The notes under the pieces: model-generated
The model's input: only the letters and a program-made list of their open reading frames with translations
Databases searched by the model: none
What the model was told of the DNA's origin: nothing
Translations under genes and position numbers: made by a program
Source of the DNA: Thuidium tamariscinum
Lineage: Eukaryota > Streptophyta > Bryopsida > Hypnales > Thuidiaceae
Assembly: GCA_947034885.2 (NCBI GenBank)
Contig: OX344751.2
Location: 44,483,082 to 44,547,081, forward strand
Direction of reading: 5' to 3'
DNA length: 64,000 nucleotides
Shown here: in pieces, positions 19,480 through 44,817 of the stretch
How positions within the stretch are numbered: the stretch's first letter is position 1
Layout: every line of letters starts with the position of its first letter

Positions 19480-20155
19480 AACGTGCACCGTCATTTAACC
19501 GAAACAACAAAATTTGGTGTTTGCAAAACTTTGAAGTTATATAAAACCTAAACAAGTTGCTATTGTTAGTAGTTTACATTTTGGGAAACTTCTTTTTGAA
19601 GTCTAGATTTAGCATCGAAAACCTGATTTTGAAATTGGTTGATTATGATTTTTCTATTCAAGATTTTGTACAAGGGTGTCCATTGTAATCTTCACTTTCT
19701 ATAGTGTTGAGGATTCTTGGATTTGAGCCTCAAGTAAACTAATTATTTAATTCTTGGAGAAGAAGTCACATTGACAATTTATTTAAGAAAATTGTAGAGT
19801 AGATTTTGAGAAGCCATCAATAGATTGGATTTAATAATGTTGGGTCCTTTGACCTCATATTTTTTTGGTGACCAACCTTTTTGATTTGACATGTTAATGG
19901 AAGAAGATCAAAAAACTTCAACTCACTTTTGCAATTTTAACACCCTCTTGATCAAACATTATAATTTTTCAATTTATAAATGATGTTGTTGTGTTTTCTT
20001 TTCCTAAGTGATCTCTAACAACATGTCTAGTTTGAACTTGTATAGTTACATTTTTTTTTAAATTCAGTAAAGCTTATCAAAATGTTGTCTTTTATGTTCA
20101 ATTTAGAATAAATTCCCAAGAGCTCAAAAAAGGCCTTGGGCATTTAGGGGTTAAG
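19480..20155. repeat. Copy 1 of a ~650-bp dispersed repeat
   Basis: Shares long colinear blocks (TTTTTGAAGTCTA, TTCTATTCAAGATTTTGT, GTGTTGAGG, AAAAAGGCCTTGG) with 26.42-27.01 kb and 45.39-46.03 kb. The right end is GGCCTTGGGCATTTAGGGG followed by TTAAG. It keeps the uninterrupted site that is split by a MITE in the 46-kb copy. Confidence 0.7.
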
Positions 20156-21076: not shown

Positions 21077-21310
21077 TGAAGTTTGTTAAAATGGTAGTAT
21101 TCCAAATGCCATTTTTCAAATCACATGGTTAGAACTAAAAAGTGACATCTAGGATTGATGTAGATTTTTAGACATCTAGGACATATAGGTTCTTAAAATC
21201 TATGATGTATTTAGATTTCAAACCATGTGGTGTAAAACATCTTGGACAAGTATAGATTTCATAAATCTACAACACTTATAGATGTCAAAAGTCTATTATG
21301 CTTCAACATT
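21077..21310. mobile_element. Truncated TIR element, TTCGTTAAAATGG family
   Basis: The left end GTTAAAATGGTAGTATTCC and the interior (GACATCTAGG, TAGATTTC, AACATCTTGGACAAG) match the nested element at 23993-24261. The right end is missing. Confidence 0.5.
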
Positions 21311-23061
21311 TTAATTTATAGAAAATAAGAAAAAACATTTTCAAAATAAATAAAAATTGGCCATTTGGGGAGACTTTTTGATGATGATACTTGACCAAAA
21401 AATTGAGGTCAAAATCCTTTTTAATGTTTGGAATTGTTCACACAAAGGAGGCCTGTCTAGACAAATGTGGAGGATGTAAAATAATACATTTTTAAATGCC
21501 CTCTAGTAGGAATATGTATACCTATAAGGAAAATATACCATAGAAATTTCATTGAAAATCATTAATTTCAACCACTCAATAGTATAAAACCCCTCTATAT
21601 CAAAGTGTGACAAATCAACAAAATTAACTTTTAAATATAAAATGATTTTTAAATTTTTTTGAAAATAAGGGATATAATTTCTGTCAAGATATCTTGAAAA
21701 TTAATATTTTGGTTTGGGCATTGTATTCATTCTTCAAAAGTTGTAGCACTCCAAAATCAAACCGCAATCCAACTACCAAGTGTTTCTTGAACAAACATCT
21801 AATTTCAAGCCACACATTATGACAGTCATCACTACCTAGTGTAAACTTACATGCCAACACTCCTCCAATGACCATGCATATTTGTCAACTTGGCCAATTT
21901 TTTATGAGACGGCTCATGTATAACTTAGACATAACTTCGATTTTGCACTCAGAATGTAGAAATTTCAAGACACCAATTTAGTACTAGATCTCTGAAACTC
22001 TTACATTTCAACTCTAAGATTTTAGGTTTAAAAGGGGCATTAAAGAAAATTTGGATTCTCTAGAGGGCCCCAAGCTTTGACGAGCCACTTTATATAGAGA
22101 GTGCTATAAAGCTACTAAAAGGACAAAATTGCTAACACAAATGTACTTGAGCTTGTGTCAATATCTTGAACATCTTTCAACTTTAAAAAAAAATTATAAA
22201 TCTATGAGAGGAGGGCACTTGCTTCCCCCCTCCCCCCTTCCATTTAACTAATATTTCTTTGTAAATCAAAGTTCTGATGATTGCAAAATTGACAGTAAGC
22301 AACAATAGGGGAAAAAACTTTATCAAGTCAAAATAAATGTTCTACAAGGGTTCTTCTGGCACTTCTTATTGGACCTCTCAAGAGTCTAGATTTTCTCTAT
22401 TAATGAAATGGACGCTTTGGAGCTTTAAAACTTTTTGGATTTCTTTGTCAACTGATTGAATCTTTGAAATCTATAGCAAAGTGATACTGCTATAGTATTC
22501 AATGCTGTGTTCTGCATTTGAATGTGTCGATCTGTTGGTATCATCTATTCTTATAAAATGCCCTTACTTGGATACAAAGAAGTGATGAAACTTTAATGTA
22601 CATTTTTTGCTCATTCATGTATATTTCACTTGGAGCTAAGAGTGGTGTAGCAAGGGTCTTAGGATTGAATTTACAAGAGTTACAAGCAACCATTACTGCC
22701 AGTCACTTAATTTATGTATTGCATAATTGTTTGAAATTTGAGTAATGGGATAAGTATGCATATTTATTTTCAATGAGAAATGAATGGTTGATGAAGTGGA
22801 GTAGAACACTTTCATTGGTTGAAAAATATAGAGATATTTACTTCCATCCATTATACATTTCAACGGTGCCCTGTTGATAATAAGGTCATTCAAAATTTAA
22901 GCTAAAGTGCTGCAAATAATGTAATAAGCATCAAAATTATCAATTTTATTTATTTGCCTCAATTTTGGTGTCCAAAATTTCATACATAGACCTTCACAAA
23001 GGTCTAATTTCAAGTCACAAATTGGGAAAATCATCACTACCTAGTTAGAACTTATGTGCCA

Positions 23062-24282
23062 TGGTGAATGCAAGAAGCACTTTTCCTATTTTGCATCACA
23101 CAACATGTGTTGAATTGTTTTTTGGCCATAACTTTTGTGTTTTGACTTTAAATGACTCAAAATTTACAAAGAAGGTGTTCATGACTATAATACACCTTGA
23201 TTGATTTTTTTGTAATATTAAAAAAATTATTATTTAAAAATAGACCATGGTTGAATGTCACACTTGCCAATTTGGAGTTTTTTTATACTATTGGCCAGGG
23301 TAAATGCAAGAAATACTTGTACTATTTTACACCTTGTATTGATTTATTTTTTGGCCACCATTTTTGTGTTTTGACTTTAAGTGACTCAAAATTTATAGGG
23401 AAGGTACTCATAACTATAATACACTTTGATTAATTTTTTAATAATTTTTAAAAATAATTAATTATTTAAAAATAGACCCCAATTGATTGTCATACTTGCC
23501 AATTTGGAGGTTTTTAGTACTATTTAGCACCCAGAAAAACAAATTTCAAGTTGAAATTTCAAGGAGATGGTCTTCTAGTAGACTTGTAGCTAAGAGTTGA
23601 AGGAATTTTAAAAATAATTATTTGTATGTAGTGTAGAAGTCTACAAAAATGAGCCTTCTTTTGCGTGCATTTTGAAACATGTAAAAAATGATTTTGGTGA
23701 ATTTTTTGGTGATTGACCATCTCCATAAAGCTTTTGCAAATGGTCAATTTTTATTTTTATTTTTATTTTTAAATTCTACTTTTTACTAATTAAAACATCA
23801 AAGTATGTATTTTTTTGAGGTCAAATGGCACTCTTCAAGTTCTCCTAGTTAGAAATTTCTTAAACACTTTCTTCCAATGATTTTCTTCATCTTAAAGGTG
23901 TATACATTAGTCATATTTTTTAAATTAAAAAAAAATCTAGTTTTAAAGTACTCTTAAAAAAATCATGCAAACCCAACAAATAGTACAAGTATGGTGAATT
24001 TCGTTAAAATGGAGGTATTCCTTATGCCAAACTAAAAATTGACATCTAGGAAAGGGTATAGATTTCAAACATCTAGGCCGTATACAGATTTTCAAAATCT
24101 ACGACTAGTTTAGATTTCAGATCACACAATCTAAAACATCTTGGACAAGTGTAGATTTCAAACATCTACAACACAATGAACACATGTAGTTTTTAGACCA
24201 TGTGGTTTGAACTGTCAAAAATGTCAAACTAATGGATACCGCCATTTTAACGAAATTCGCCAAGTGTTTCTTGCATTCACCC
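23062..24282. mobile_element. 4-bp-TSD TIR element, copy 1 (1221 bp, contains a nested element)
   Basis: Ends are GGTGAATGCAAGAAGCAC and GTGTTTCTTGCATTCACCC. It is flanked by GCCA on both sides (23058-23061 and 24283-24286). The interior carries the family block CCATAACTTTTGTGTTTTG. A second left-type end, GGGTAAATGCAAGAAATAC, lies inside at 23298. A related uninterrupted site exists at about 21.85 kb. No transposase is visible. Confidence 0.75.
23993..24261. mobile_element. TIR element nested in the 23-kb element
   Basis: Ends GGTGAATTTCGTTAAAATGG and CCATTTTAACGAAATTCGCC are inverse to each other. It splits the right end of the surrounding element (TAGTACAAG before, AAGTGTTTCTTGC after). 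About 270 bp, non-coding. Confidence 0.65.
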
Positions 24283-25100
24283 GCCAACACTCCTCCAATG
24301 ACCACGCATGTTTGTCAACTTGGCCAATTTCCATAAGACGGCTCTAGGGTTCCAGGTTTCGAAGGGGCAACTAAAAACCCATTTGAACAATTGGAAATTC
24401 TAACTTCCAAACACTTGAATACACATTAACAAGGTTGATCCGAGTCAAACAGGCATTTTGGAATGCTGGTGAGGTGGCCTAATCGTCTTGAAAACTCAAA
24501 TCTACAGCAGTCTTAGTTCTTAGTATTTTCTGCAATTTGGGCTCTCTGAATCGCACCCATAAAACATAAATTAACCTTCACATTCAGAACATATGCTCAC
24601 GATACCTGATTTCGAGCATGAATTGCACCAGACGTGGCATGAATGCATGAGCATCCCTGATGTTACCGATCCACAAAATTAGTCTGCCAGTGATCGTGTT
24701 AGAATTGTTGTCGTCAATCGTCACGGAAACATCCATTACAATGCCAAATTTCAGTAAAGGTGGCAATTTTTTGTACAATCACCCAGAACTTTAATCTGTA
24801 TGTGACCCAGTTATGAAAAAGAAAACAAATTACAGTATGATTTCGTCAAATTCGAATAAATTGTCACAAATATGAGCTCTCAATTTGTGCTTCCTCATCT
24901 ATGCAACGCTTCAGTTAAAAACTAGGACCTGTGTAGATTTACGCCTGAGACCAAGCACCCTGAAGCCTGCAGGGCCAAAGTCGTAAAATCAACCGCCATT
25001 TTAATTCACGAAATTGGAGTTTTTCTGCATCTCATTTTCAGCTACTAATCTGTCTAATCTATGCAATTGAAATTTCGATCTTTCCAATCAATATCTTTTC

Positions 25101-25270
25101 TACTTCCCGTTGCATGATCTCTCCGGCCTACAAAAAGGAGCTGGTGTCTGCTACTCGATCCCATCATCTCTTTATCATTTGCAACTTCCAAACTCACTCA
25201 CCTCAACACCACTACCTTGCAATTCGATCAACAGAGTGTTAGTTACACACAAGCTCCGATCCGATCCATT
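25101..25270 (+). promoter_or_regulatory. Presumed promoter/5' UTR of the small secreted protein gene
   Basis: This is the 170 bp before the start codon, C/T-rich like many plant leaders. A TATA-like CTACAAAAAG lies at about 25129. Weak evidence only. Confidence 0.25.
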
Positions 25271-25669
25271 ATGGCGAAGCCTCTCCTTCTGATTCTCACG
25301 CTGACAACCCTCGTCGTCGCTGCCTCAGCGGCGTCGGTGACAGTCTACAACCCAGCCACGTTACCCGTGAACATCGCCATTCTGGCAGCCGGCGATCACC
25401 CCCGTGACGGTGCCGACTACGGAGACGACGACGTCGTGAAGCCGTCGACGACGATGATGACGACCGTGAACCTCACTGCAGCCGAGCAGGACGTTTGGAT
25501 CAAGTCGACGACGGGCGAGGAGCACGAGGTGGAAGTGCATGTGCGAGACGGCGACGTGCTTGTGGTCGTTCCTGACGCAGGTGGCGATGGCGGACTGCTG
25601 GGCTTCAAGATCGATATCCTCCGCCACACAGCGAGCCTCAGCCGCGTTGTTCCCCCGGGCCCCAGGTAA
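25271..25669 (+). CDS. Small predicted secreted protein of unknown function, 132 aa, single exon
   Basis: I do not recognise the family. The ATG at 25271 is followed by MAKPLLLILTLTTLVVAASA, a clear signal peptide with probable cleavage after ASA, giving a mature protein of about 110 residues. The mature part starts SVTVYNPATLPVNIAIL, has no cysteine, one N-glycosylation sequon (NLT), alternating beta-like segments (EVEVHVRDGDVLVVV) and a D/G-rich loop. A short beta-sandwich outside the cell is possible but only inferred. Codons are very GC-rich at the third position, unlike the AT-rich DNA on both sides, which supports coding. The longer frame upstream has no ATG. It is isolated from other genes. 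Confidence 0.65.
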   Translation: MAKPLLLILTLTTLVVAASAASVTVYNPATLPVNIAILAAGDHPRDGADYGDDDVVKPSTTMMTTVNLTAAEQDVWIKSTTGEEHEVEVHVRDGDVLVVVPDAGGDGGLLGFKIDILRHTASLSRVVPPGPR

Positions 25670-27096
25670 TCGAAAACCGCCCGGACGCCGACCGACGTAC
25701 GTGTTACTATCGATCGATCTGCTGTTACATACATACAAATGTCTGTCCGTGGAGCTTCGTTTCTGGTGGAATTGAAGGCTTCTCTAGTACTGTATAGAGC
25801 TTCAATCAGTCCCGATCCAGGCGGCAGGTTTCAGTTTCGTGTATGGAATAATTGTGTCGATCGATCTAGCTTTTCGATCGATCGATCTACTGGTTTTGTG
25901 CCTAGATGGTCGATGTATTGTGTCTAGACTCTTGACGGTATTGGAAAATTGTGGCTAGATGATTGATGTGTTGTGTCTAGACTCTAGACTGAAGAAGAAT
26001 ATTGTGTCTCGAAGGTGTTGCGTCTACAGTAGGCGATTGATGTCGATCGCGTTAACCCGCCTACATGCCCGAGGCATCAAATTCTGGTTTCAAGTTAAAT
26101 AAAAGCTTACTAAGTTACTATTTTTAATTCATTAGAAGGGATTTGAGGGCAAAAGAAGCCCATTTCAAGTTTATTCTCAAAACTACTCTGGAAGCTGTTG
26201 GTTGCAGTCAGCAATTACTAAAAAAAATTTCAAGAAAATTTTAGTGAACCTTGAAATGCAAAAAAAAGTTTTTTTGTTTTTGTTTTTTTCTAATTTTTTT
26301 TGATGATGTGGCATTCTCTTGACCACATTGAATCTGCATTTCTGTAGTAGTTTTTGCGTTCTTGCAATTTGGGAACTTGCAATCTTCTGGAGGCCTCAAA
26401 TCTCCTCTAATGAATGTAGTTGTTTTATAGCAAATTATTTTTGAAGTCTACTTTTAGCATCAAGAATCTTATATTGAAAATGAATGGTAATGAGTTTTTG
26501 GTTAAAGATTTTTTGCATGGGTATTCAGCATAGCAAATCTTTATTTTTTTGGAAAATGAAAATGAGCCTAAAATACACTAGTTTATAAAGAAAAAATCAC
26601 ATCTTAGACATTCATTTTTAAGAAGTTGTAGAGTAGATTTTAAGAAGTTGTAAATTGATTGGAATTATGTAAGTTATGTACTTAAACCTTTTTTAAATAA
26701 TTCAAATTTGACATGTGAAAAGAGGATTGAAACACTTTCAATCACTTTTTCCAAATCAACAGATGTATCAAAACCCTCATGCATGACCAAACATTACAAT
26801 CTTTCAATCCAAAAATGATACTGTTGCCTTTTCTTTTTGCATGTTATATCTATTATCTAACATGTCTAGTCTAAAACTTTGAATTTGTTCGTTTACAATT
26901 TTCTTAAATCATGATAAAATTTATCATTTGAAATGTTGGCTTTTGTATAATTTTAAACAAAGTCTTGGAAGAAGCTCAAAAAGGCCTTGGGCATTAGGGA
27001 TTAATATAATAATGAGTCCTAGTAGCAATATTATTTGTGTATAGTAAGTGGATCCTATTCTTGAATTATAAATATATGCAATTGAAAGCATTAGCA
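25670..27096. other. Downstream flank and dispersed repeat copy 2
   Basis: The first 400 bp carry GATCGATCGATC runs and a repeated TTGTGTCTAGACTCT block. From about 26420 to 27010 there is a second copy of the 19.5-kb repeat, ending AAAAAGGCCTTGGGCATTAG. No gene. Confidence 0.5.
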
Positions 27097-28191
27097 GGGT
27101 GAATGCAAGAAACACTTAAAGCCTTTTGTGTCACACCCTATTTTTTTATTTTTCTTTTAGCCATAACTTTTGTGTTTTAGCTCCAAATGACTCAAAATTT
27201 ATAGGGAAGCTACTCATGGCTATTATGTATCTAAAATGAATTTTGGAGATTTTTTTTAAAATAATTTATTATTTTTAAATAGCCCCGAAAATTTCTCACA
27301 GTACTCAATTTAAGGATTTTTAGCACCTTATTTCTCCAAAAAAACGAATTTTCACCTAAAATTTGGAGAGAATGGTCTCCTAGTAGACTTATACCTACTG
27401 TCCAGTGGAATTCTAAAAATACTTATTTTTAAGTGTTGTAGAAGTCCTCAAAGAGAGCTTCACTCTGCATTTTTTTCAAAAGGTATAAAACATTATTTTG
27501 GTGAGCTTTTTGGTCAAATCTCATCACCAAAAAGTTTTTTCAAGTTTTTTATTTTAATGTATTTTTCAAAAAAATAATATTATTTTTAACAAATTAAAAT
27601 GTCACAAGTTGTATTTTGTTCATCGGAATTCTATGAGAATTCTATGTCCAAAGTTCCGGTGAAGAAAATACAACTTGTGACATTTTAATTTGTTAAAAAT
27701 ATTATTATTTTTTTGAAATATAAATAAAAATAAAAAACTTGAAAAAACTATTTAGTGATGAGATTTGACCAAAAAACTCGTCAAAATAATGTTTTATACC
27801 TTTGGAAAAAAATGTAGAGTGAAGCTCTCTTTGTGGACTTCTATGACATTTAAAAATAAGTATTTTAAAAATTCCTTTGGATAGTAGGTATAAGTCTACT
27901 AGGAGACCATTCTCTCCAAATTTTAGGTCAAAATTCGTTTTTTTGGAGAAATGGGGTGCTAAAAACCCTTAAATTGAGTACTGTGAGAAATTTTTGGGGC
28001 TATTTAAAAATAATAAATTATTTTTGAAAAATCTCCAAAATTCATTTTAGATACATAATAGCCATGAGTAGCTTCTACATAAATTTTGAGTCATTTGGAG
28101 CTAAAACATAAAAATTATGGCTAAAAGAAAAAGAAAAAAATAGGGTGTGACGAAACGCAACAAATAGTACTAGTGTTTCTTGCATTCACCC
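27097..28191. mobile_element. 4-bp-TSD TIR element, copy 2: 1.1-kb palindrome (foldback)
   Basis: Flanked by AGCA on both sides (27093-27096 and 28192-28195). Ends are GGGTGAATGCAAGAAACACT and its inverse. The two halves are inverted copies almost from end to end: the left arm runs to about 27629, the right arm from about 27654, with a 24-bp spacer. The arms contain the family block GCCATAACTTTTGTGTTTT. A read-through transcript would fold into a ~530-bp hairpin. No coding capacity. Confidence 0.85.
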
Positions 28192-28329
28192 AGCAATTGA
28201 ACACAAAACATGACTCACTACACTAGATTGCATATTACTTGCTATCTTTTGATTTGTTTCAATGGGATAAATAAGATTTAGAGATTACTATCTTTGAAAG
28301 CACATCAAAAATCACTTGCAATAGGTACA

Positions 28330-29061
28330 GGGTCATTGCAAGAAACACCTATACTATTTTGAGTCACACATTGCATGCTGATCTGTTTTTTGGCCATAAC
28401 TTTTGTGTTTTGGCTTCAAATGACTCAAGATTTATAAAGAAGGTACTCATAACTATTATACACCATCCTTGATTTTTTCATAATTTTCAAAAATATTTTA
28501 CTATCCAAAAATAGACCCCAATTGAATGTCACACTTTATAGTTTAGGGATTTTTAGTACTATGGAATACCTTTTTTTAATGATTTTGAGATGAAATTTGG
28601 ATGAGATGGACTTCTAATAGACTTCTAGCTTTCCAGCAAAGGATTTTCAAAAATAGTTAATTTTATGTGGTGTGGAGGTCTACAAAGTGAGCATATTTCT
28701 GCTTATATTTTGAAACATATAAAATATGATTTTCGTGGGTTTTTTGCTGAATGACCATCTCCATAAAGTTGTTGTGAATGGCCACTTTTTATTTTTTGAA
28801 AATACTTATTTTTATTATTTTTCCTTAATTTTTGAATCAAAGTACCTATTTTCTTGAGATTTGGCACTTTTCAAGTTCTCCTACTTAGAGAATTTTCCTA
28901 TCAATTTCCTTTGGTGAAAACCTTCAATTTAGAGGTATATACATTATTCATATTTTTTCTTAAATTTTAAATTACTTTTCTAATTTTATAGTACTCCTGA
29001 AAAAGTTATGAGTACTATTGCAAAACGCAACAAAATTGACAAGTGTTTCTTGCAATGACCC
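28330..29061. mobile_element. 4-bp-TSD TIR element, copy 3 (732 bp)
   Basis: Flanked by TACA on both sides (28326-28329 and 29062-29065). Ends are GGGTCATTGCAAGAAACACC and GTGTTTCTTGCAATGACCC. The interior is non-coding and is homologous, in inverse orientation, to the element at 33640-34361. Confidence 0.85.
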
Positions 29062-32000
29062 TACAAAGTTTTTTTTTTGGATTTCGATTTTGGTTGACAA
29101 ACAAAAAGTCCATTAGAAAGAAGCTGAAAGTCAAAAAATAGAATGCATTGTGGTGAAGATGAGACCCATCACTAAAGTGCTTTTCTATAAGTGATTTGAT
29201 TTTTTTATCAATAGGTGCATTTTTACAATAATCATGAAAGTTATTCATTGACCAATTTTGGTCCCACCTCCATGTCATGTCAAGATTAAGATACAAAAAA
29301 TATAAAATAGTGCAACAAATTCTAAAAATTAGATTACAACTTTTAACTCCTATAGCCTTTAGGCAATATTTTCATCAAAATCACTCAAATCAACCTTTTC
29401 TATAGTAGTGTACAAAAGTTTTAATAAAAAGTTCCTTGATGCATATTTAATTATAGATTCATGCATTCTATTATCATTTTATATGGTAGGACTAGCATTT
29501 CTTATGCAATAGCTTTGTTTTTTTTTGAAAAATGAGGTTTAATAGATGCTAAATAGTAAAAAAAACTTGTCAAAATTTTGTCAACAATTTAATTTAATTT
29601 ATCATACAATTCTTCTGGAAAAAAATAATTTTCCTAAAATTTTGGCATCTATTTTTTGAATTGTTTTTTGCCAATCCTATCTTACAAATCTTGTAATTGG
29701 TATGAGAATGTATTGAAAAAAATTCAAAAACTTTGACCACATGGATTGAAAGACAATATTTTATAGTTAATTCTTGAAGGCTTTTGACTATATTTTCACC
29801 AAAAACACTTCTAGAACAAATACCAACTTTTAACAAAAAAACATTTTTTGACACATGTAATTGTAGGATGTTGTTGTGAATTGGTTCAAGAACATATAGA
29901 AAAAATTTCAAAAATTTCTTCCATATAGATTGCAACATATGAACATTTGAATCGACAAATATTTTTTTTAAGCCTTCCAAAACCTCTGGAAGCTACATTG
30001 AAGATGGTCACACTTGTACGAAAAAATGTCTAAAATCGTGGTTATTCTTTAGATTTGTTCTTCAAAGCAAGTTGGCTAGATGCTTGGAAATTTTCAAATC
30101 ATTTAGAATTGTACAGTATATAAGAAAAAAATAATAAGTAGAAAAAAATAGAGTATGATCCTAAATGTTAAATTATTAAAAATTTATTTATAGAATTGAA
30201 AAATGTCAATTCCAACGGCTGTTACATTGTAACAAACAATCTACACCTAATGTATTTTATTGTTAATTTCAAAAATTGAATTAATAACTTTTGAATCACT
30301 TATCAAAATAGAACGATTAAAAGCTTTTTACTTAGATATACATCTAAAAAACCAATATCAAATTTTTAGTTCTTTAGAAAAGAGTCTTAAAGAATTTTTT
30401 TTTATTGTGTGGATTGCCTACCAAGCAATGAAAACTACATATCATACAATGTATTGAAAAGTGACAACCAGGGTTTTGCCATTAATTAACAGGCCCCCTC
30501 TCTTCAAAAAATTGTGAGCCGTTGGATTGGAGGGAAAAAATTGCACCCCCCCCTTCTAAGAATTTTTTACAGCCATTGGATCAAATACAAATACGGTTGA
30601 ATGTATATATGGCAGAATACAAATACGAATACGACTGATATGTACACTTATGAGTACAAATATGTCTGAATACGAATATGAATACGTCTGCAAATACGTC
30701 TAAATATGAATACGAATACAGTTGGATGTGTACACAGGTGTACATTGGATTTGTCCCATATTGTTTGGAGTCCTTCCCCCTTCCAAAAATTACAGTTACC
30801 CCTTAGGAAAATGCTGTGTGAAAAATTCAAAAATAATAATAAATTAAAACTCCATTTGTAGTGAACTACCTAAAATTGCTATGTTGCCAAAAAAACATAG
30901 TTTAGTACTTTAGGGGTTAAAGTGAAGAAACATGATTTTTTATACTCTTTGCCTAACTAGATTATAAGATTTTGAATCTTCTTAACTTAAAATTTTTGCA
31001 CTATAACTTTTGATTAAAAAGAATTTGTTGAAAAATCAAAATTTAAAATTAAGAAAATCAATTAAAAAACCCTTGATTTTCATTTTAAAAAATTTGTTCA
31101 ATAGATGTAGGTACAAGATCAAAGAAGAAAGAACATTGAATTGTTCATAACTTTGAGATGGAATTGAAATACATTTATCTCCATAGTAAGATTGCTTTAG
31201 ATAAGCAAGTGAATTAAAACCTTTGCATTTTTTTTAAATTGAAAAAATTAAGTTAAAAAGAAAACCAATGCATTAGTTTCTTAGGAAGATGCTATAATTT
31301 TATGCAATATATGATGTTGCATAATTTTAGATGAATATTACAAATGAAATGATAAAAAAAAACCTATATATATAAATGTATAATCTATAAAAAAACATAT
31401 TTTTGAAGTTCAGTCTTTTTTTCTATTTGGATTTGACTACTTTTAGTTTAGGTGGTATAACTTTTGCCTCGAGGACCAACTAAAATAAAATTTATGTTCT
31501 TCACAAGATATTCTATTTTTCTATCTTTATATGAAGTTTAAAAAGAACATGCAAAAAATTTTAATTTATGGAATCTTGAAATTACTTTGTTTTGTTCTTC
31601 AAGGATACAAATGGGACTTTAGGGGACACAATCCATTGTTCACACACACATGCACATTTTAGCAAGGTAAGGTGGGCTATTTTCGATTAGTCCTAATGCA
31701 TCATAATTGAAAAGAATTATTTAACTTAGGAAGGTGATACATAGAAATGAACATTCTTGATTGGTGCTAAAATTTTTCTATCACAATTTTGAAGCACTTT
31801 CAATCCTACAATTAGTACTTGGTTGAAAATAGAATGACCAATATAACAAGTATAGAATGAACAAATTTTCACCTAGAAAATTCATGATAGTTTTGTTTTG
31901 GGAAATAAAATTTTGAAAAAATATGGAACCCTTTCGAGTCTATTTCTACACATGTAAAAAATTTCCCCCTCAACATTTGTGCATTCCATATATGCTCAAT

Positions 32001-32294
32001 TGCTTATTTGGTCAGAAATCAGTTGCTTCCCCTAAAAATCGAACCAAAGCTAAATACGCTTGAAAAAAAAAATGGAGAAACTTCAAATATTCATTTAATC
32101 AATGTACAGAATTTATACTAAAGGAGCTAATAAGTTTCAAATGATAGCACATTAAGAGATGGTTGCCCTTCCTTGTTCCTATGGGAAGGTCTAAACAATT
32201 TTACTTTGATATGATATAAAGAAGCCCTTGAGCAAAAAAGAGCCTAAATTCAATTTTGACTTCAAAGTTTTAAAGGACCTTGTTACCTAAAACC
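29062..32294. other. AT-rich intergenic DNA, no gene recognised
   Basis: A/T-rich with long homopolymer runs. The only structured piece is the GTATTC-type array near 30590-30730. No coding exon or complete element seen. Confidence 0.45.
30590..30730. repeat. Degenerate AATACG tandem repeat
   Basis: Near-repeats of AATACGAATACG and AATACGTCTG. Inverse counterpart of the array at 20545-20715. Confidence 0.7.
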
Positions 32295-32519
32295 AATCAC
32301 AATGATTTGAGGAGCGATGGTGAAGGCCGGAGCAGCGCGGTGCCGCTGTAACTACGTTCTGCGTTAAATCATACCTAGATACATTGTCGCTCTAGTGTAG
32401 TTCGATCGAATTGTCTAAGTTTGCGTTCATGTTTTGCATGCAGTTGATAATCCTGCTTAAAGTTAGATTATTCAAACCTAATTTCTCGAATTGTTTTAGT
32501 TTAACCTAATCTTCTAACA

Positions 32520-35500
32520 ATGTCAGGCGTTAACTATGCGGCTGTACTTCGCAAGGATAGTAAAGTCGTCAGTTCTTCGTCACTCCCGCGTACTGTTACC
32601 TCCACGAGAAGCAGGAAATGTGTGTCAACAATGGAGTTAGCAAGGTCAGATCTGCCAAACCAGCTAGGTGATCAATAGGGTTTCAGAGACACTAATCTCC
32701 CCTCATGAGTCACCAAAAACCCTAATGGATATCTCGTACGGGACTACGTCGTCGTCCCCACCACGAAGTTCAACATGCTGGAGTTACGTAGAGAGGCAGC
32801 CTACCTCAAGCAGCATGTCATCATTGTAAGGTTTGCGGTTGATCTTCCTTCCTCTAGCCGTCATGAATTGTGGATCAAGGAGTTAGAATCCTTGATCAAT
32901 GCTAAAATTTCTCTTCATCGTGAAGCGGGAGGTGGGTTTCATTTTATCAAGCTAGCGTCTATTGATCTTGTCCGCCAAGTCCTTGCTCTGTCCCCTTACT
33001 GCCTGCATGCGGGTACGGCCGTTTTTCAACGGTGGATCCCGGTGTTCAATCCTAGCCAGCCTTCTGGCCTCGGCGTTCTTTGCTGAATTAATCTCAAGAA
33101 TTTGCCCCTTGAGTTCCACCACCCGGAAGCCAAAAACTTGGCTAGCTTAGTCGGGACTGTCCTTGAGGAAGATCAACAGGCAACCTCAACTGCTGATCCA
33201 AGGTTCTGCGTTTCTATTGATCTTGCCCGGGGTTACGTCTCTACTCTCTCAGTGGCGAACGTGGCTGGTCAATTTTCAAAAATCACCATTGAATATGAAG
33301 TTGAGGATAAGTTGTGCAGCAGGTGTTTTGACCCCTCTCACGAAGAGATCAATTATCCTAATCGAGGCATTTTAGATGTGCCTCCGTTTCATTCTCGAAG
33401 GTCTGCTTCGGGTAGACCTAAAGCCTTTCCTTCGAAGCCGTGCCACTCCCATCGCCCTGGCAGAATCTCCCATCCCAACAGAGGTGACTCTCGTCATGAA
33501 CCGTCCCCTCAACATGCCCCAACTAGAGAGGATGGTTTTACTGTGGTCTCACGTCGCCCTCGAAAACCCAGCCCATCGATGAACAACCTCCCCAAAGCAT
33601 GGCAAATTAAACTAGTTGTCATCGTTGTGGAGGACACATGGGTGATTGCAAGAAACACCTGTCGATTTTGTTGCGTTTGGCTGATTTTTTCGGGAGTACT
33701 TTAAAATTAGAAAATTAATTTTAAAAAAAATTTAAAAATATGAATAGTGTATATACCTCTAAGATGAAGGTTTTCACCAAAGGAAATGGATAGAAAAATT
33801 CTCTAAGTAGGAGAACTTGAAAAGTGCCAAACCTCCAGAAAATACATATCTTCATGTTTTAATTAGGGAAAAATAGTAAAAATATATATTTTCAAAAAAT
33901 AAAAAGTGTGCATTTGCAAAAACTTTATGGAGATGGTCATTCACCAAAAAAACCACCAAAATAATATTTTATATGTTTCAAAATACAAGCAGAAGGGAGC
34001 TCACTTTGTAGACCTCCACACCACATAAAATTAACTATTTTTAAAAATCCTTCCCTGGAGAGCTAGAAGTCTATTAGAAGACCATCTCATCCAAATTTCA
34101 TCGTAAAATAATTTAAAAAAGGTACTCCATAGTACTAAAAAACCCTAAACTGCCAAATGTGACATCCAATTGGGGTCTATTTTTGAATAGTAAATTATTT
34201 TTTAAAATTATGAAAAAATTATGGAAGGTTTATGATAGTTATGAGTACCTTCCCTACAAATCTTGAATCAATAGGAGCCAAAATACAAAAATTATGGCCA
34301 AAAAACAGATCAGCACACTTAGTGTGACACAAAATAGGACAAGTGTTTCTTGCAATCACCCACATGATGCCCTAGCCCGACTGCTATGGATATTGAATCG
34401 CCCCAAGCCAAAACGCCCAGCAATCCTAGAATCATTGACAATCAGAATATTGATTCTTTTTGCCGCCCTAGCGTTGTCGATTCCCCATCTGTGTAGGAAA
34501 TCAATCTGCCGTTACAAGCCTCCCAAATCCCGAGCTCTTCCTCTCTCACCCTTAGATCTTCCAAGCTATTCATAGATCCCGTTGTAGAGGCCCTCTTGCC
34601 CTTAGCTTCGCCATTGCTCCCCTCCGACAACCTAGTTTACATTTCTGATATCACTGATGAACCTAGTCCATCCGATGACGTCGATATGGAACTAGAGGCA
34701 GAGATAGAACAATACATGCTTCACCTCGTCAAGGAATAAGATGCCATTCAAGCTTCTCAGAATGATGAAGCGATTATACTAGCATCTCCCTCCATATCAG
34801 TGAGTCAACCACTTATTACATTAGTTGGTAGACCCAGTCGCGACCTTGAGTCGAGTCTAGCACTGTGCTTCACGCCAGTCTCTGAGGCCAATACGACATT
34901 CCCCATACAGCAACTGTCCCAGGCACTAATTTGCCCAAGGCCTTTAGAACCGACAAGTATTACCCTAGAACTCCTTGGGATTGATATTCACAAGGGTAAA
35001 CAGTTTGCATTCTCAGATGACTCTGACGACATAGTTCCCTAGAACCCCTCTGACGATTTAACTGACGAGATTGAGGAAGGACCTTTACAACATGAGGAAG
35101 AGGCCTTCGAGGACGCGCAATGCAAACAATTTTCCCCAGTCCAAGTTGGAGATAAAAACCCAAAACCTAATCCATCATCCCACTTGCAGCCAAGAGCAAT
35201 ATTCATCGAGCCAGTCTTACAACCTGATCCCAGCCAAATACCAACGTTGGAACATATTGGACAAGTACCTCGCATTAGCAAAGCTGAAGCTAGGGACAAT
35301 GAGCGAGCGTACAAAGCAATCCAAATGCTTATGGCTGATAGAGTAAGACCAAGCCAGGGAACGCAATTGACTTCAATCCCCCAACACAAGTCCAATTCCA
35401 TTCCCCCAACTCCAGCAGCTGAGCAAACATCGTCAGTTCGCAGTGCTCGGGTGGCGGCTCGATCAATCAGCTCTTCTCCAATCACTCCCCCTTCTAATCC

Positions 35501-35603
35501 TTCTCCCCCCGGGCAGTTAGAACGGTGGGGTTATAGCGATGGAAAATCTCGCAAAAGCGAAGAGGCTGTCGCAAATAGAGCCTCAACTCCCATCCCTCGT
35601 TAA
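32520..35603 (+). pseudogene. LINE ORF1 (RNA-binding, zinc-knuckle protein), broken
   Basis: Starts at the ATG at 32520 (MSGVNYAAVLRKDSK), then is closed by a stop and resumes at about 32775. That segment, with VIIVRFAVDLPSS and GGGFHFIKLASIDLVRQVL, resembles the DUF4283-like domain of plant LINE ORF1. After a frameshift near 33.09 kb, the part with PRFCVSIDLARGY and YEVEDKLCSRCFDPSH matches the usual region before the knuckle. A degenerate knuckle, CHRCGGH, is interrupted at 33640 by the TIR element. The proline/serine-rich tail continues to 35603. Confidence 0.75.
33640..34361. mobile_element. 4-bp-TSD TIR element, copy 4, inside LINE ORF1 (722 bp)
   Basis: Flanked by ACAT on both sides (33636-33639 and 34362-34365). 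Ends are GGGTGATTGCAAGAAACACC and GTGTTTCTTGCAATCACCC. The interior is the reverse of the 28.3-kb copy (for example, CCTCTAAGATGAAGGTTTTC here). It sits within the zinc-knuckle coding part, so it is younger than the LINE insertion. Confidence 0.85.
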
Positions 35604-35606
35604 TGA

Positions 35607-38600
35607 CTTTACGACTTATCTTTTAACGTTAGAGGCCTTAACGACAAAGCCTCAGTTCCTTTATTTTGCAACTACCTTCAATCTATCTCTCCGCTCGACA
35701 TAGTTCTTTTATAAGAGCACAAATTGAGAAACCAAGATTTACTTAGCCTGGAGAAAACACTTTGGCCGCAGGCAGCTGCATGGTCTGCCGACACTAGCGT
35801 AGGATACAACAACAATTTATTTAGACCAGGAGCTGGCAAGGAGGGATCTTAACATTAGTGGCTTCCAGGCTCTCACATATGGTTACCAGGTCTAGTACTA
35901 TAATGAATAATAGAGCTTTATGGATCACACTACAAGGCTACCCTGGAGGAGAGGTGGGCATTGTCAACGTTTATGCTCCAAACGACTTGTATTCTAGATG
36001 CTCGTTGTGGAAAGCCTTAATACATGAACTACCATCAGGATGTAGATGGATCTTAGGGGGAGACTTCAACATGGTCGAAGCTCGTCAAGATAAAACCAAC
36101 CTGTGCGGTCGTCTTGTCCCTGTTGCCGAGCGTGCTTTGTTTTCAAACCTTAAGCGGCATCTTCAAGTTGAAGACAACGTACGCTCTCCTGGGAGCCTTC
36201 CCTTCTCATGGGATAATCTCAGGACCAACGGCAATCGCGTTATGGCTCGTCTCGACCGATTCTACATTTTCAAGAACGCGGCTGGATCGACGATCCGCAA
36301 GCTAACGGAGTACTTGATTAAGAGTGACAGCGTCGGGTCTGATTACTTTTCCATTTCCATTACAATTGAGCTACACAACTCAACACATCATTCGTTACGG
36401 TGGAAAATGAGCAACCATTGGCTCGATGCTGTGAGATTCCAAATTGAGCAAGCCTGGTATGGTTCTTCCCCTGATTCACCATTTTTTAGAAAGTTGAAAA
36501 ATATCACCAAGGTTTATCTAGCTTTCTGTAAGAAACAAGCACAGCATTTCAAAGTATAGGAAATTGATGCTTGCAAAAGATATTCTGATACCTCAGCTAC
36601 CCTACAAGCCAACCCTGATGACCTTGACTTCCAAAGTCAACATGGCGCTGCAAGGGTCCACCTTCAAGATATCGAATCTAAGAAATTAGCCGGGCAGTAG
36701 GTGTGATCACGTCTCAGGTGGAAGATCAAAGGCGACCAAGTCTCAACTGAATTCTTCAAAGCTGTTCGAGAGAAGTCAGCCTTGTCAAATCTAACAAATC
36801 TGCAAAATGCAAGCGGCCAACTCATTGAAGATTCGGCGGAATTACGGCAAGTTTGCTCGGACTTTTACAGTAAACTATATTCGGCATCGGAATCCAGCCT
36901 TGACAACCTCAACGCAATGGATGAGTTCTCCAGCCTGCTAACAAATCGGGTTCCTGTAGAGGCAAAAACTCTTTTAGCCAGCCAAGTGTCGGAACAGGAG
37001 CGTAAGCAAGCCTTGGATGCAATGGCATCGAACAAAAGTCCAGAACCCGACGGACCGATTACTGAATTCTTCCAAAAATATTGGTACTTGATCGGAAGCA
37101 AATTCTCCACTATGATTCTCGACTCGATTAGTCAAAACTCCTTTCCAAAGGGCATGAATCATGGAGTAATTGCCTTATTACGTAAAGGAAGCCCTCGAGA
37201 AGAAATTGGCAACTGGCGACCTATCAGCTTGTTAAACGTCGCGTACAAAATTTTTGCCAAGGCACTTCAAAGACGTCTCCAACCAATTCTAGCTGAGGTA
37301 ATTAACTCTCATCAAACAGCGTTTATTCCTACTCGTTACATTCTTGATAACATTTTGCTACTTCACGAAACTATTTCCTGGGCTAAAGAGTCTAATCAGG
37401 ACGCGATTTTGATCAAGCTAGATTTTCAGAAGGCATATGATATTGTTCATCTTCCCTTCCTTTTCAAAGTAATGGTGACTATGGGCGTTCCTGCAAACTT
37501 CGTGGACCTAGTCAAATTATTTTTTGTTAACGCAGAGGCCTCAGTATGTGTAAATGGTGTAGCATCAAAATCCTTCCCTGTGCATCGTGGGGTCAGGCAA
37601 GGGTGCCCACTGGCCCCTTATCTTTTCCTCTTTGTCGGAGAGGCCCTAAACGTTGCGGCTAAGTGCTTACTCAATGAAGGCGAACTAGCTGGTATTTCCC
37701 TTCCTTTGGATGTTGCTCAACAACTTATAAGCCAATACGCAGACGATGTCAACTTTACGATCAAAGGAGAAGAACGATACTTCCAGCGCCTCTCCCGATT
37801 ACTTTCTCGCTATGGAGAAGCCTCAGGGCTACTGATTAATTGGTCGAAAAGCTTAGCATATTGGCTTTTTCCCAATCCTGCTCCTCCTTGGCTGGTCCAA
37901 CTTGGTTGTCTGTGGGCCGTCGAACACTAGCTATTCAAACTACTTGGATCGCCTTTCGGCATTGATCCTCAAACGGTAGATGTCGATGAATTTCTAGCCT
38001 CAAAGGTGCGCAAAAAACTGGACTATCGGTCGACTGTTCATCTCTCTTTAGCCGGGCGTGCTGTTATCGTAAATTCGGTCTTACTCAGCACATTATAGTA
38101 CTTCATTGCCATCTGGGGTGGATCACTAGCTATCATCCGCAAAATATGAGCATCTTTACGTAATTTTCTCTAGTCAAGATCAGCGCACCGCAGCCACACC
38201 AGGGTTAGCTGGACTGATTGTTGCGCAGCTCGACATGTTGGAGGTCTAAACCTAGTCGATCTTGAAGAAGCACTTTATGCTTTGATGGCTAAATGGATGC
38301 TTAAGGCCATGCTTCCCTGAGCCTCCAATCTCCAATTCATTCTCAGATATTGTATATTACAATGCAAACCAGCTGCAGCTGGGTCTTGGCCTCTGATGCC
38401 TCAGTGACTCATGTTACCAAAATTCACAGCCAGTAAAGGCTCTAGAGCTTGGGATCGAATTGTCAGAGCATGGAGACAACTTAACCAACACATTGTTGCT
38501 GTGCCCGTGATGAACTATGACAAACTCCATTGTGGTGGACTACTCGATTTTTAGATGGTTATCATGGTTTCTCTGCTAAAAGAACCACCATTCTCATGTT

Positions 38601-39822
38601 GAAGGGCCTGAGCCAAATCCAACACATTTTGGGCACAGTTACTTCTACTTTTATATCATGGTCGATAGCCAAGGATCTCTTCAATCTGATGGAAGACGAA
38701 TTTGTTGCTTACACACAGATGGTCGACTCAATTCCAAGAGCATGGATTAGCCTTCTTAGAGAATATAGATTCGTCACCAAATCCAAGGAACACATTCGGT
38801 TTTTTGTAAACGAAGATGATACGATCCCGACCTTAGTTTTCTCCACCTCAACGAAATTCAAGCCCAGGTTATCTCGCGATCAACAACTATTAGAGCTTCC
38901 TAATGATTCTCAGACTTACTCCGTTGGTCTAGCTTCCTCTATCTTGACAGAGAGACTACAATAGGTGCTACCGGAAGGTCTTCTGGTGCAAAGGTGGCTT
39001 CGTTGAATCAAAACTGCGAAATCTAAAACAGGCTCCCCTTTATACGTTAGTATATTATCTGAGCTTGACTTCGATCCACCTAGAGAGATGGGCGTAGGGC
39101 GACTCAGGTTCGATTCACTCCTATACTACTAAACTTGGCCACTCCTTGCTTACAAATAGATTGAAACTAGCTAAACCCATCCATGAAAAATGGCATGGTG
39201 ATATTGTTGTAGGATACAAGCCACGGTGGAGTGAGGTGTGGCAAAAATCTCGTCCTCGAAAGGATGCGGGTTTTTTATGGTCAGTCTATCATGGTGCCGT
39301 CGCGGTTCACTGTTGGCGAAGGATTGCCAACCCCAATATTCCAACAATCTGCTAGAGCTGCCAGTTAGGACTCGATGAGACTATCTTACACATATTTCAT
39401 CACTATGTTAAGACCCGCCACGCCTGGAACTTCACCCTCTCCATCCTATACCAAGCCCTAAAAATTCCCTACTCTTCAAGATCATGGCCATCCCTTACTT
39501 GGCAGCAATGCCTGCTTGGTTCCAAACTCCCAAGAAGCCTCAAGAGGGTACAACGATGTGGTCGTTATTTAGAGGCTCAGTTATCTGGACGGTGTGGCTC
39601 GACAAAAACGCGATCTATTTTAACAACAATCCTTGGCCTCCACAGAAGTTAGAGAAGGTTTTTTGGGAGGCTTGCGTTGATCACATCAGAACCGCCTGGA
39701 TCAGAACGACCAAACTGTGCGTTCTCTACCCGAACAATGCTGGTGTGTTTCTCAGGAGATTCGACTCCATATGGCTTCAGACTAACTTTTTCGGTGAGAG
39801 GTCCCACCATAAGGTGTACTAG
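35607..39822 (+). pseudogene. LINE ORF2 (AP endonuclease + reverse transcriptase), broken
   Basis: The endonuclease part starts DLSFNVRGLND at about 35613, followed by an in-frame stop replacing the residue before EHKLR. It continues with VNVYAPND and WILGGDFNMVE near 36.05 kb and MARLDRFYI near 36.24 kb. The reverse transcriptase (about 36.78-37.93 kb) shows NWRPISLLNVAYKIFAK, the catalytic-region motif DFQKAYDIV, GVRQGCPLAPYLF, and YADD at about 37735. Downstream pieces to 39.82 kb match the C-terminal zf-RVT-like region (for example, FLWSVYHGAVAVHCWRRI). Multiple stops and shifts separate the pieces. Confidence 0.85.
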
Positions 39823-40696
39823 AATCTAGCACACCCAAAGATGGGACTTTCCACTTAAGGTGGCTCTGCTTCGTCGAGTTGCTTTTCCTCCTTCGTGGCT
39901 TCGTTCCGTGGTCAGCCTGGTTGTTGTCCATCTGCGTTGGTGGGTTGAGCTACGCCTGCTCGGCCTGTTGGTCTCCTTGTGTTAATTAGGCATTAGTTGT
40001 TAGTCAGAAAAAAAAAACATTCATTTGATTTCTCGTTGGAATTTTGGCCTCTGGTTCCGTGTACTTTTTCCTTGCAATGGAATTTGTCCTTGTGTTTCAA
40101 AAAAAAAAAAAAAACACAATCACAAGATGAAATGTAATATATTTTGACAAAAGTTTCTTAATTTTTGTCAATTGTAAGCCTTGCAAATTGCAAGGTGAAA
40201 GATGTTGAAATTGGTTCTTTTTTGAAAGCATCCTTTAAAATATAGAATATATATATTGGAAGTTTTACAATATCCATAGTGAACACAAGAATGGATATTT
40301 TAAGGTAGGGATAATTTTGGAGCAACTTCAAAAATCTATAATCAATTCAATAAAAGCCTAATAAATGTGTAGATAAGTGCAATTCAATAGTTGCATGTCA
40401 TCTTTTAAAAGAAAATTAGTGAAAGTTGAATTGAATTGTTAATGTATCTTTCTTAGAAATTCTAAATTCTATAAGACCTAGATTCACCTATTTTGATTGC
40501 TTTACATATTTTTGTTGAAGAATTTTGTACAGATACATTATTTACCTCAATTAAATCAAATTCATTTTAAAGAACTTGTAATTTGAAAAATTTCAAGCAT
40601 TACATTGGATAAATGGGGATATATATCATCCAAAGCTTTTGGTTCATCTTTTAAAATATGAACTTCAAAATAAATTCAAATTTTTCCTCCTACTTT

Positions 40697-40918
40697 CACT
40701 ACAAGAGAAAGGGGTGTTTTAATTGAGTTTTTAAGTAATGTCCTAGACATCAAACTATAAGTAATGACTTTTAAGGCAATTTTCATTAATAATTTACTAA
40801 AAGTACATGTATATCTAGTAAATTTTTGTTAAAAATTGCCTTAAAGGTCATTACTTATAATGTGATGCCTAGGACTATACTTAAAAACTCAATTAAAACA
40901 CCCCTTTCTCTTGTAGTG
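40697..40918. mobile_element. CACTA-type MITE, 222 bp, with TTT target duplication
   Basis: Begins CACTACAAGAGAAAGGGGTG and ends with the inverse, CACCCCTTTCTCTTGTAGTG. The inverted arms extend about 90 bp inward with few mismatches. It is flanked by TTT on both sides. CACTA ends with 3-bp duplications are typical of the CACTA (En/Spm) superfamily. Non-coding. Confidence 0.8.
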
Positions 40919-43900
40919 TTTTTTCATATATTGTTCAATAAAGTAGCCAATCCCTTTTTAATTAGCCCCCTATTTCCAAAGTCTAGACTATATTCATGGG
41001 GTTTACACCCTATATATTTATATAACTACATACGATAACGGGGTATTTAATGGGGGGGGTATTTATTTCTTTCCAATTTTTTTCCCTCCCTATAGGTAGG
41101 TAGAAAAAAAGCTACCTATTTGTATTTTTCAAGATTCTATTCTTTTGTAAAGTCTTAGAGAGACTAATTTTTCACACCCTATTTTTTTAATACATTTTAC
41201 AATTACAAAACTTTGCAAAGATCATGAACACTCTAAGAGCAAGCACGTGCGATCCCGGCATTCCAATGTATTACATGTATAAAAAGATGCAACAGATACT
41301 ACCATTCAAAGGGCCATGATCAAGAACTATACATACACGTTAATTATGTAATTGCCTCCCAAAGAAACTCTAATATAACAAAGTTCACAACTATAACATG
41401 AAACCATGCTTTAAAATCCTTTCATAAATAGCCTAACACTTTCAAACACGTCGTAGATAAAGAAAAACAACTACAATACAAAATTCAAAGAAAAAAATCA
41501 CATTCAAATACACAATATACAAACTTAGAGAATTTGTATATTAGAAAGTGTATTTACAAATACAATTGTTGTGGAATGTTAGTGCCAATGTATTCCGACC
41601 ACATGTTGCTGCCACATATTCTATAAGATATGTGTAGCTGGGAGATGGTATTCTATCAGAAAGGAAATTCCATAAATTAACCTATGAGCGCTTTGACATC
41701 CAATTTCTAGACGATGTATAGATTGAAATCCAAATTTCTTTCTCATTATAGATTGGATGAAAGTCATTCTAATTTTTAAAGATACTTTATGAAGTTGTGG
41801 TCCTATATTCTTCTAAAATTATAAATGTGAAAGTATATCAAGTGGTTGACTTAGGTTGACTTGGGTTGACTCTAGTTCAAACTTAGAATTGCAAAAATGA
41901 AGTCATAGAATCAAAGAACATAAAAATTCCAAAAAATCACCATGTCTTGAAGATAACTTCATTTCAAATCCTTTCCTACAAAATTTATTCAAAAAGTGAC
42001 AAAATTTTGTTTGTAATTGAATTTAGAATGAATTTAGAATTTTTCCTTTTAAAATTTATAGAAAATATTGGTGATAGCATTGACAAATTTAACCGTATAA
42101 ATAGAATCTAAAACTCAAATTCTACAAATTATTTCCATCTCAACTCCAAAATAGACTTCCAAATAGCTCTTTATAATGATTCTTGACCTCTTTTAATTCC
42201 TAAGTGTTTGGACTCACCTCCAGAATTGATAATCAAATTAATTCTATAAAGTGATAAGAATAGATTTGCCAATTAAATAAGCTCAATTCTAGAGTATGTC
42301 AGTGGCTGCACTTAAACTCTTTTTGCTATACTACTAATCTCAATTTCTCTATAATTTACAAAGTTAGAATATTAAGGCATCCATACTCCATCGACCATCC
42401 CACTTCATACGTTGTCATAGAGGAATTGGGTCTAAGTATAAAATGATATAGGTATTATCTATTTTCATGGAAATATTCCCCTAAATAAATAAATAAAAGA
42501 ATTTATCCAAAAATGTAACAATTACTAGTGTTATCACTAGTATACAGATGCTTTAATTTGTTCAATTATAGCACAATAATGATTGGTAAATAGAATTCAA
42601 CCCTCCAATAAAGCAGCATGCACCAGATAAGGAATATGCTAGACTAGAAGACAACTTGGGGTCTTCAATTCCGAGTTTTTCATTGTGGTTAGGTGCTTCA
42701 TTTTAATTCAAAATTAGGACAGCTTTTCTACTAGGGGAGGACACTTCCCATTTTTTAATAACCTACGTGCAGTGGAATATAGGGTACATTTAAATAATCT
42801 TAGGTAAAATTTATAAGAAATTTACATATAAAATAGGGGACATTAAAAAGGCAAAGTGTTTTAAAAATAAAATAGGGATGATAATATGGCTAATTTTTCT
42901 GTTTTATGGTAAAATAGGGACTCTTTTAATGTTGCCAAGTAATGATTACAAGTGATTGATAGCCCCCCTAAAAATACCCCACCGCTGTACGTGGGTCCCC
43001 TAAATATACAAGAAGTGTCCTCCCTGGGCTTTTCTAACTACCCCTTAACTCCTCATTAAAAAACTGAACCTACTAAGCACTTCTAAGGGGATCCGACCTT
43101 TGTCATCCTCCTAGGGAGATTATTCATGGTTTTAAGAAAATTAGGTGAGTTAAAAGATAGGGTCCATTTAATTCAAAGGAGATAAATTTTATATAATACA
43201 TAGGGCTACTATAGGGTCCTTGAAATGCTACATATCCTATTATATATAAATTAGGCTCTATAAAAATATTATTTAGTAGGCATTTTTATTAATAAATTAG
43301 CCTTTACAAATAGGGTCCATACAAATTTTTTGTAATATAATGAGTATAAATGTAGGCAATTTTTTTAAATGAATGATAAAACCTACACAATCTAGCAAAT
43401 AATTGTAGCCTATATATACAAATCTTTCCATAAGTATGCCAACTATGTAGCAACATGTAAGAATCTATTGTTCCAAGACAAAAGAGTTAAGCTATAAATT
43501 TACAATGAGGTTGCACTATGGGGATTTGTGTCCATACAAAGTACTTGTTAAGAAATTATTGTAGGGTTTGGATACTGTCACTTCCATGTGGCTAGGGTTG
43601 CTAAGAACATTGGTCTTGTTGTCTTAAACTCAAACCATTGCAAATGCATAAATATAGATAAAATATATATGGTCTTTATATTATAATAGAGGTCATATTT
43701 AGGTGTTAATGTACACTGTTTTTAGAGTGTTGGTTTCTCATGTTATTGATGTTATATTGCTAGTATTAGTGTTTTTTTGGTTTCAACATCATAATTATGT
43801 TTAATATTTTATGATGCGGGTTCTGATGTTATTTGTTATTCACTATATCATGTTGTTTGGAATACATGGTATAGAATTTTTTCAAATTTAAAACTAATGC

Positions 43901-44072
43901 TACATTTCACTCTTTTATTTGTCATTTGAAATTTTACTACAATACAAGTAGTACATATATGTGTGTATATATAAAAGCGTATATGTATGATACTAGTTTT
44001 ATAGTGTCTATTGTTTATAGGTATGAAAAAATTAAACATGTAAGTTTTGTATATAAAATAGCCCAACTATAA

Positions 44073-44817
44073 GGGTCATTGCAAGAAAGACCTGCGGAAA
44101 AGTGTAGCGTTTTGTACAGTACTCACTTTTTTCTTTGGGAGTACTATATAAATAGTAAATGAATTTTTTTTAAAAGTGAAAAATATGTTTGATGTATATA
44201 CCTTTAAGAAGAAGATTCCCTAGAAAGGAAAAGCATAGAAAAATTCTCTAAGCAAGAAAACTAGAAAAGTGCTTAATTTCGTAAAAATTGTAACTTTCAC
44301 TATAGTTTCACATTTTAATTTGTAAAAAATAGGGAAAGTAATTTTTCTTAAAACTAAAAATTGGAAATTTGGGAAGACTTTATGGTAAAGGTATTTCACC
44401 AAAATAATGATCCGAAAACTATCTTGATTGTTCAAAAATGTGCGTGCAAGGGAGGCCTGTTAGCACACATGTAGAGGAAAGAGAATAATGTTTTTTTAAA
44501 TTTCCTTTGGTGGAAACATGCCTACATATTGTAGGAATAAACCCTAGAAATCTCAGCTCTAAATTATTAATTTAAAGTACTCCCCAGTACTAAAAAACCC
44601 TAAACCGCAAAGTGTGACAAATTAGAGAAATTAGAATTTAAATATAAAATGATTTTTGAAAATTTCTGAAAAATAAGGGTTTTGATAACTATCAAGTCAG
44701 TCATCTTCAATAAAAATTTCAAGTTCAAAGAGTTAATGCTTCAAAAGTTATAGCTCATGACAACTCCGTCACTCAAAGTGTGACACCAAATAGTACAAGT
44801 CTTTCTTGGATTCACCC
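44073..44817. mobile_element. 4-bp-TSD TIR element, copy 5 (745 bp), more diverged
   Basis: Ends are GGGTCATTGCAAGAAAGACC and GTCTTTCTTGGATTCACCC. Flanks ATAA and ATGA match at three of four bases. The interior block TGTATATACCTTTAAGAAGA matches the 33.6-kb copy. It is older than the other copies, judging by the mismatched ends. Confidence 0.75.

Follow-up and report, generated by a model that had tools for sequence, protein, structure and literature searches.

Abundant TIR elements with 4-bp target duplications, very probably a family of large MITEs, whose superfamily is left open

The window, i.e., the whole stretch of 64,000 nucleotides analysed here (G000:C3:44483082-44547081), belongs to a genome of 363 Mb in 19 contigs, whose gene content, with UbiA, Kelch and K+ transporter matches, is compatible with a plant. 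In the window, a Kelch-repeat gene (13586-14848) adjoins a repeat array at 14451-18330 with steps of ~645 and ~877 bp. A dispersed repeat is present at 19505-20020 and 45408-45911 (77-82% alike), with a part of it at 26432-26699 (61-75%), and an inverted repeat of two adjoining 111-nt arms, 88% complementary and lacking a spacer, is located at 40697-40918. A LINE-like element occupies 33102-37930, in which the reverse transcriptase frame (RVT_1, 2.6e-33) extends from 36782 to 37930. Scattered among these features are the members of a family of elements with shared terminal inverted repeats (TIRs) and 4-bp target site duplications (TSDs), one of which is hosted by the ORF1-like part of the LINE-like element (table).

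Table. Members of the TIR family in the window (positions are those of the 64,000-nt stretch).
Position	Strand	Feature	Details
21301..21748	.	degenerate partial sixth copy	covered in blastn by family elements of other loci; direct repeat D17
23058..23061	.	4-bp duplication GCCA	more GCCA at 23294-23297 and 24283-24286
23062..24282	.	two family members forming a composite	fragment of a left end (23062-23293), then element 23298-24282
27097..28191	.	fold-back member, 1095 bp	exact TIRs at both ends; TSD AGCA/AGCA
28330..29061	-	732-bp element	exact TIRs; TSD TACA/TACA; reverse alignment against the 33640 copy
33640..34361	+	722-bp element in LINE ORF1-like sequence	exact TIRs; TSD ACAT/ACAT
44073..44817	+	745-bp element, ends more diverged	TIR mismatches 1 and 2; TSD ATAA/ATGA, one mismatch

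The elements have in common a TIR of ~19 bp, 5'-GGGTSAWTGCAAGAAACAC, and end in GGGT..ACCC. Eleven matches to this TIR with up to 3 mismatches occur in the window; 100 dinucleotide shuffles gave 0.03 on average. The original prediction counted five copies in 22 kb, and each of these intervals has the ends claimed for it, together with the very flanks listed (GCCA/GCCA for the 23062 copy, the others as in the table), which are identical in four cases and differ by one base in the fifth. The ends are real, and what required revision is the count, since the 23062 copy is composite and a degenerate sixth copy is present, in which no TIR match with up to 3 mismatches was found. Within the 23062 copy, TIRs are located at 23062 (+, 2 mismatches), at 23298 (+, 2 mismatches) and at 24264-24282 (-, exact). 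Because of this second inward TIR, the third GCCA and left-end stretches at 23062 and 23298 that are only 63% alike (repeat family D5), this copy looks like two elements with one common target 4-mer, rather than a single 1221-bp element. The stretch 23058-24286 reads as two members head to tail, an arrangement that would result if the target duplication of the first had served as the insertion site of the second. The fold-back member has two arms of 378 nt (27251-27628 and 27654-28031; inverted repeat I2) that are 92% complementary. When the flanks of the 33640 insertion are joined, frame 0 continues from one flank into the other, although it contains a stop at the joint itself and more stops beyond.

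Genome-wide, the TIR has 13,163 matches in forward orientation and 13,137 in the opposite one (up to 3 mismatches), against 24 + 32 matches for a control in which the pattern was read backwards. As each element has two ends, these 26,300 matches would correspond to a family of ~13,000 elements which, at ~730 bp per element, may make up ~2.6% of the genome. The family is spread over the contigs listed, and its insertions include one into a LINE and one into its own kind. A search of viral contigs, among which records close to the genome of the window may be absent, found no exact copy of the TIR.

The flanks of these elements were tabulated in a set of pairs, each made of a forward TIR with up to 4 mismatches and the next reverse TIR, irrespective of the flanking bases. 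The pairs came from the window, including the inner pair of the composite copy at 23298, and from 58 loci (L001-L058) centred on mismatch-free TIR matches that were listed for contig C1 within its first 7 Mb, and thus represent a non-random sample. Identical 4-bp flanks were found in 49 of the 64 pairs and a one-base difference in another 10, while the remaining five agree at 0-2 of 4 bases. Exact flank identity over 2 bp was found in 7/64 pairs, over 3 bp in 2/64, and over each length of 5-10 bp in 0/64. Three of the five failing pairs, L008, L014 (501-904) and L016 (501-1256), have mismatch-free TIRs at both ends and may be recombinant or mispaired. Matching 4-bp flanks are also absent from L014 501-3150 and L016 5325-6922, and present at L047 and L050, two copies with degenerate right ends that lie outside the 64 pairs. 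Among sites with enough flank, A/T occupies the first base of the TSD in 42/48 and the last base in 40/48.

An independent genome-wide listing was obtained by searching for a mismatch-free TIR next to an SWWS flank, a class that is closed under reverse complement. This search yielded 174 matches, 100 of which were listed, against 0 for the control. All 20 neighbouring inward pairs (up to 20 kb apart) among the matches listed have matching TSDs, where 1 pair in 16 would match by chance. For the remaining 60 places of the 100, the listing contains no partner within 20 kb, a partner being listed only if it too combines a mismatch-free TIR with an SWWS flank. In addition, locus L035 contains a nested insertion, in which an element at 1989-2720 (TSD ATTT) lies within another at 1001-2818 (TSD AACT). 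Transposition, which the original prediction had deduced from the window copies, is strongly supported by these TSD statistics and by the nested insertion, in which each element has its own TSD. A lack of any consistent duplication of 4 bp among genome-wide copies, the outcome that would have spoken against the proposal, was not observed in the pairs examined. That the shared ends are no transposon termini at all and reflect dispersed duplications or chance has in its favour the five pairs lacking flank identity; in view of the shuffles, the backwards-pattern controls and the exact TSDs in both pair sets, the probability of such an origin is negligible.

In structure, the family resembles plant MITEs (Tourist, Stowaway and others), which are likewise short, non-coding, bounded by TIRs and TSDs and present in very high copy number. 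TIRs with TSDs were found in the 64 neighbouring and the 20 listed pairs, and abundance is evident from the TIR match counts and from the 6588 first-look candidates returned by one query. No transposase gene was found in the 32 elements examined, in which no stop-to-stop frame exceeds 103 aa. The prediction of a non-autonomous TIR family is thereby supported, and we consider it very likely that the elements constitute a very abundant, long-lived, non-autonomous family of TIR DNA transposons, i.e., a large MITE. According to passages of a review, some plant MITE families exceed 10,000 copies and most are shorter than 500 bp (PMC10741241). The present family differs from plant MITEs in being longer (mostly ~730 bp) and in having a 4-bp TSD instead of TA, 3 or 8-9 bp.

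Most of the pairs (52/64) span 676-763 bp. Of the rest, two are short (389-404 bp), five measure 1075-1095 bp and another five fall between 804 and 1598 bp. A copy of 1082 bp at L025 carries the same subterminal sequence at both ends. Mean pairwise identity is 62% (29 of 32 elements), and both deep and shallow clades appear in a tree built from those 37 elements, out of 41, that measure 650-770 bp. These 37 elements are 728 +/- 12 bp long, a spread that is partly set by the 650-770-bp filter. Gaps per substitution amount to 0.04-0.06 at all distances, so that no special constraint on length has to be invoked. The mean AT skew (a strand skew) is 0.11, and neither the skew nor the indel rate demands a special mechanism. 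When the 33640 copy was used as query, 40 of the 6588 first-look candidates were scored. Besides the query copy, they include 39 full-length copies, all at 95-96% identity and none closer, and next to one of these an additional match at 82%. In one subfamily the end match extends over 32 bp at 94%. The many copies at 95-96% identity would fit a burst. A non-autonomous ancestor of ~730 bp may have given rise to several subfamilies in which this length was mostly kept, and to fold-back derivatives of ~1080 bp. The similar length across deep subfamilies makes the family a test case for non-autonomous persistence without re-derivation from autonomous copies.

Because the elements combine TIRs, a 4-bp duplication of variable sequence and no coding capacity, cut-and-paste transposition by a trans-acting DDE/D enzyme is the mechanism proposed here. 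Insertion is accompanied by a 4-bp duplication. In the proposed pathway, a DDE/D transposase acting in trans would recognise the TIRs, the element would be excised and inserted at a target cut with a 4-nt stagger, and repair of the resulting gaps would create the duplication. As had been predicted, the autonomous partner was not found in the window. Nor was an autonomous or long copy with the ends of the family found in the 59 loci sampled, all in the first 9.2 Mb of contig C1, a sample in which copies at ~1% or less of the family are easily missed. Likewise, the 20 pairs among the SWWS matches listed span only 645-1092 bp, with no autonomous copy among them. Orphan TIRs at L017, L018, L027 and L044 were inspected as possible long copies and appear truncated or decayed; others were scored at L006, L012 and L023. 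At L044 an inverted repeat (229-593) adjoins a family TIR, and the same locus (393-1032) shares with the window (11470-12084) a repeat that is 89-91% alike. As the ends of the family are clear, the partner enzyme should be traceable in the full assembly; a set of superfamily DDE alignments with which such an enzyme can be compared was used in PMC10294476.

The length of the target duplication is a strong signature of the transposase, and so abundant a family with a 4-bp TSD suggests a superfamily seldom or never reported from plants. The duplications of five plant superfamilies conflict with this signature. hAT elements duplicate 8 bp, and CACTA and Harbinger elements 3 bp. According to passages of PMC10741241, Mutator duplicates 7-12 bp and mariner TA. 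The five were rejected, given the exact 4-bp TSDs in 49/64 pairs and the lack of any exact pair at 5-10 bp. Ginger, GingerRoot and IS3EU are likewise TIR elements with TSDs, and some of them occur in plants. Ginger makes a TSD of 4-6 bp and is described in part of the review as having TG..CA ends (PMC10741241), and GingerRoot and IS3EU are assigned 6-bp duplications and mostly TA..TA ends in part of another (PMC10045372). Neither type of end is seen here. Ginger is rejected on its 5'-TG..CA-3' ends, as opposed to GGGT..ACCC in this family, and GingerRoot and IS3EU on the 6-bp TSD they require, which is exact in 0/64 pairs. IS481EU, for which 4-bp duplications are possible, has TNT..AYA ends as described in the same part of PMC10045372, and these too are at odds with GGGT..ACCC.

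Since duplication length, target or ends conflict for the others, Sola alone is left, on the features tested, of the superfamilies compared. Sola ends may begin GRG. In passages of PMC10741241, Sola is characterised by 4-bp TSDs, very variable ends and TIRs of 11-1124 bp, and is reported from the moss Physcomitrella and as uncommon in flowering plants; a review table adds Capsicum (PMC9033089, in part). The family is like Sola1-3 in its 4-bp TSD, its TIRs and its variable ends, and of the Sola features tested, the 4-bp TSD and the TIR length (~19 bp, within the range) agree. Sola is defined by its DDD transposase, whereas this family is known from non-coding copies, presumably ~13,000 of them. 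Sola is therefore put forward tentatively as the most likely source superfamily, the other choice being another or an undescribed 4-bp-TSD lineage, and the family is not filed as Sola here, as the fit consists of TSD length and TIR range only. The Sola-like affinity guessed at in the original prediction hence fits in duplication length and is otherwise neither supported nor refuted.

A transposase from an undescribed DDE/D superfamily, or from a 4-bp-TSD lineage unreported in plants, is quite conceivable as the driver instead. Academ and Chapaev are 4-bp-TSD lineages, and the latter kind of driver might be Academ- or Chapaev-like. The combination of GGGT..ACCC ends and variable targets with A/T outermost matches none of the seven TIR superfamilies given for plants in the relevant part of PMC10741241, Sola's TSD and TIR range excepted, and the sole match to the TIR core in the open-licence literature is a tomato eIF4E paper judged to be unrelated. 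The failure to find a transposase is no evidence of a new one, and the reported variability of Sola ends (PMC10741241, in part) leaves room for GGGT..ACCC within Sola. It appears doubtful that the family, with its GGGT..ACCC ends and 4-bp stagger, constitutes a plant lineage that belongs to none of the superfamilies so far described there, whose non-autonomous members reached ~13,000 copies and largely kept a ~730-bp architecture through deep diversification; such a lineage would imply an undescribed transposase in the same genome.

A different candidate driver is encoded in the same genome. The target of piggyBac is TTAA. piggyBac makes 4-bp TSDs and has 5'-CC..GG-3' ends, as described in part of PMC10045372, and is absent from the set of seven plant superfamilies in the part of PMC10741241 referred to above. 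piggyBac transposases are abundant in this genome, where a search gave 659 first-look candidates, of which 116 were scored, and at L015 the distance between a decayed relative and one family copy is 3.7 kb. A piggyBac-like transposase that has lost its TTAA specificity might hence have mobilised the family. TTAA was found in 0/49 exact TSDs and on a single side of one of the 10 near-exact pairs (TTAA/TTAG), and the ends of the family are 5'-GGG..CCC with varied targets; membership of piggyBac was rejected on both counts. The long-frame copy examined, at L059, has TTAA flanks and CCC ends, its best GGGT-type end reaching only 13/19, and the L015 type is represented by three related loci at 71-75% (among the best 40 of 2052) with no recognisable ends. 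An explanation of the family by the piggyBac copies examined, i.e., the L059 long-frame copy and the L015 type, is consequently disfavoured, and mobilisation by a piggyBac-like transposase of this genome that has lost TTAA specificity is improbable.

The genome contains a piggyBac family that has multiplied. Among the matches listed in a genome search, 11 have a 1023-aa open frame, ten of them with equal score, which suggests recent activity. At L059 (G000:C1:9134300-9140200) such a 1023-aa frame lies between two CCC ends that are flanked by TTAA and separated by 5,088 bp; this candidate pair, defined in one copy, has 12/16 inverted bases and was chosen over an equal pair on the basis of TTAA and CCC. 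L015:4876-7540 carries a decayed piggyBac-like gene of a second type (PF13843, 2.7e-42), which in a structure database matches a piggyBat chain (1.2e-18) and a piggyBac chain (7.5e-16). The same locus contains, at 8767-8966, a repeat of ~200 bp with at least 35 matches at 90-94% identity, which is probably another short transposon family.
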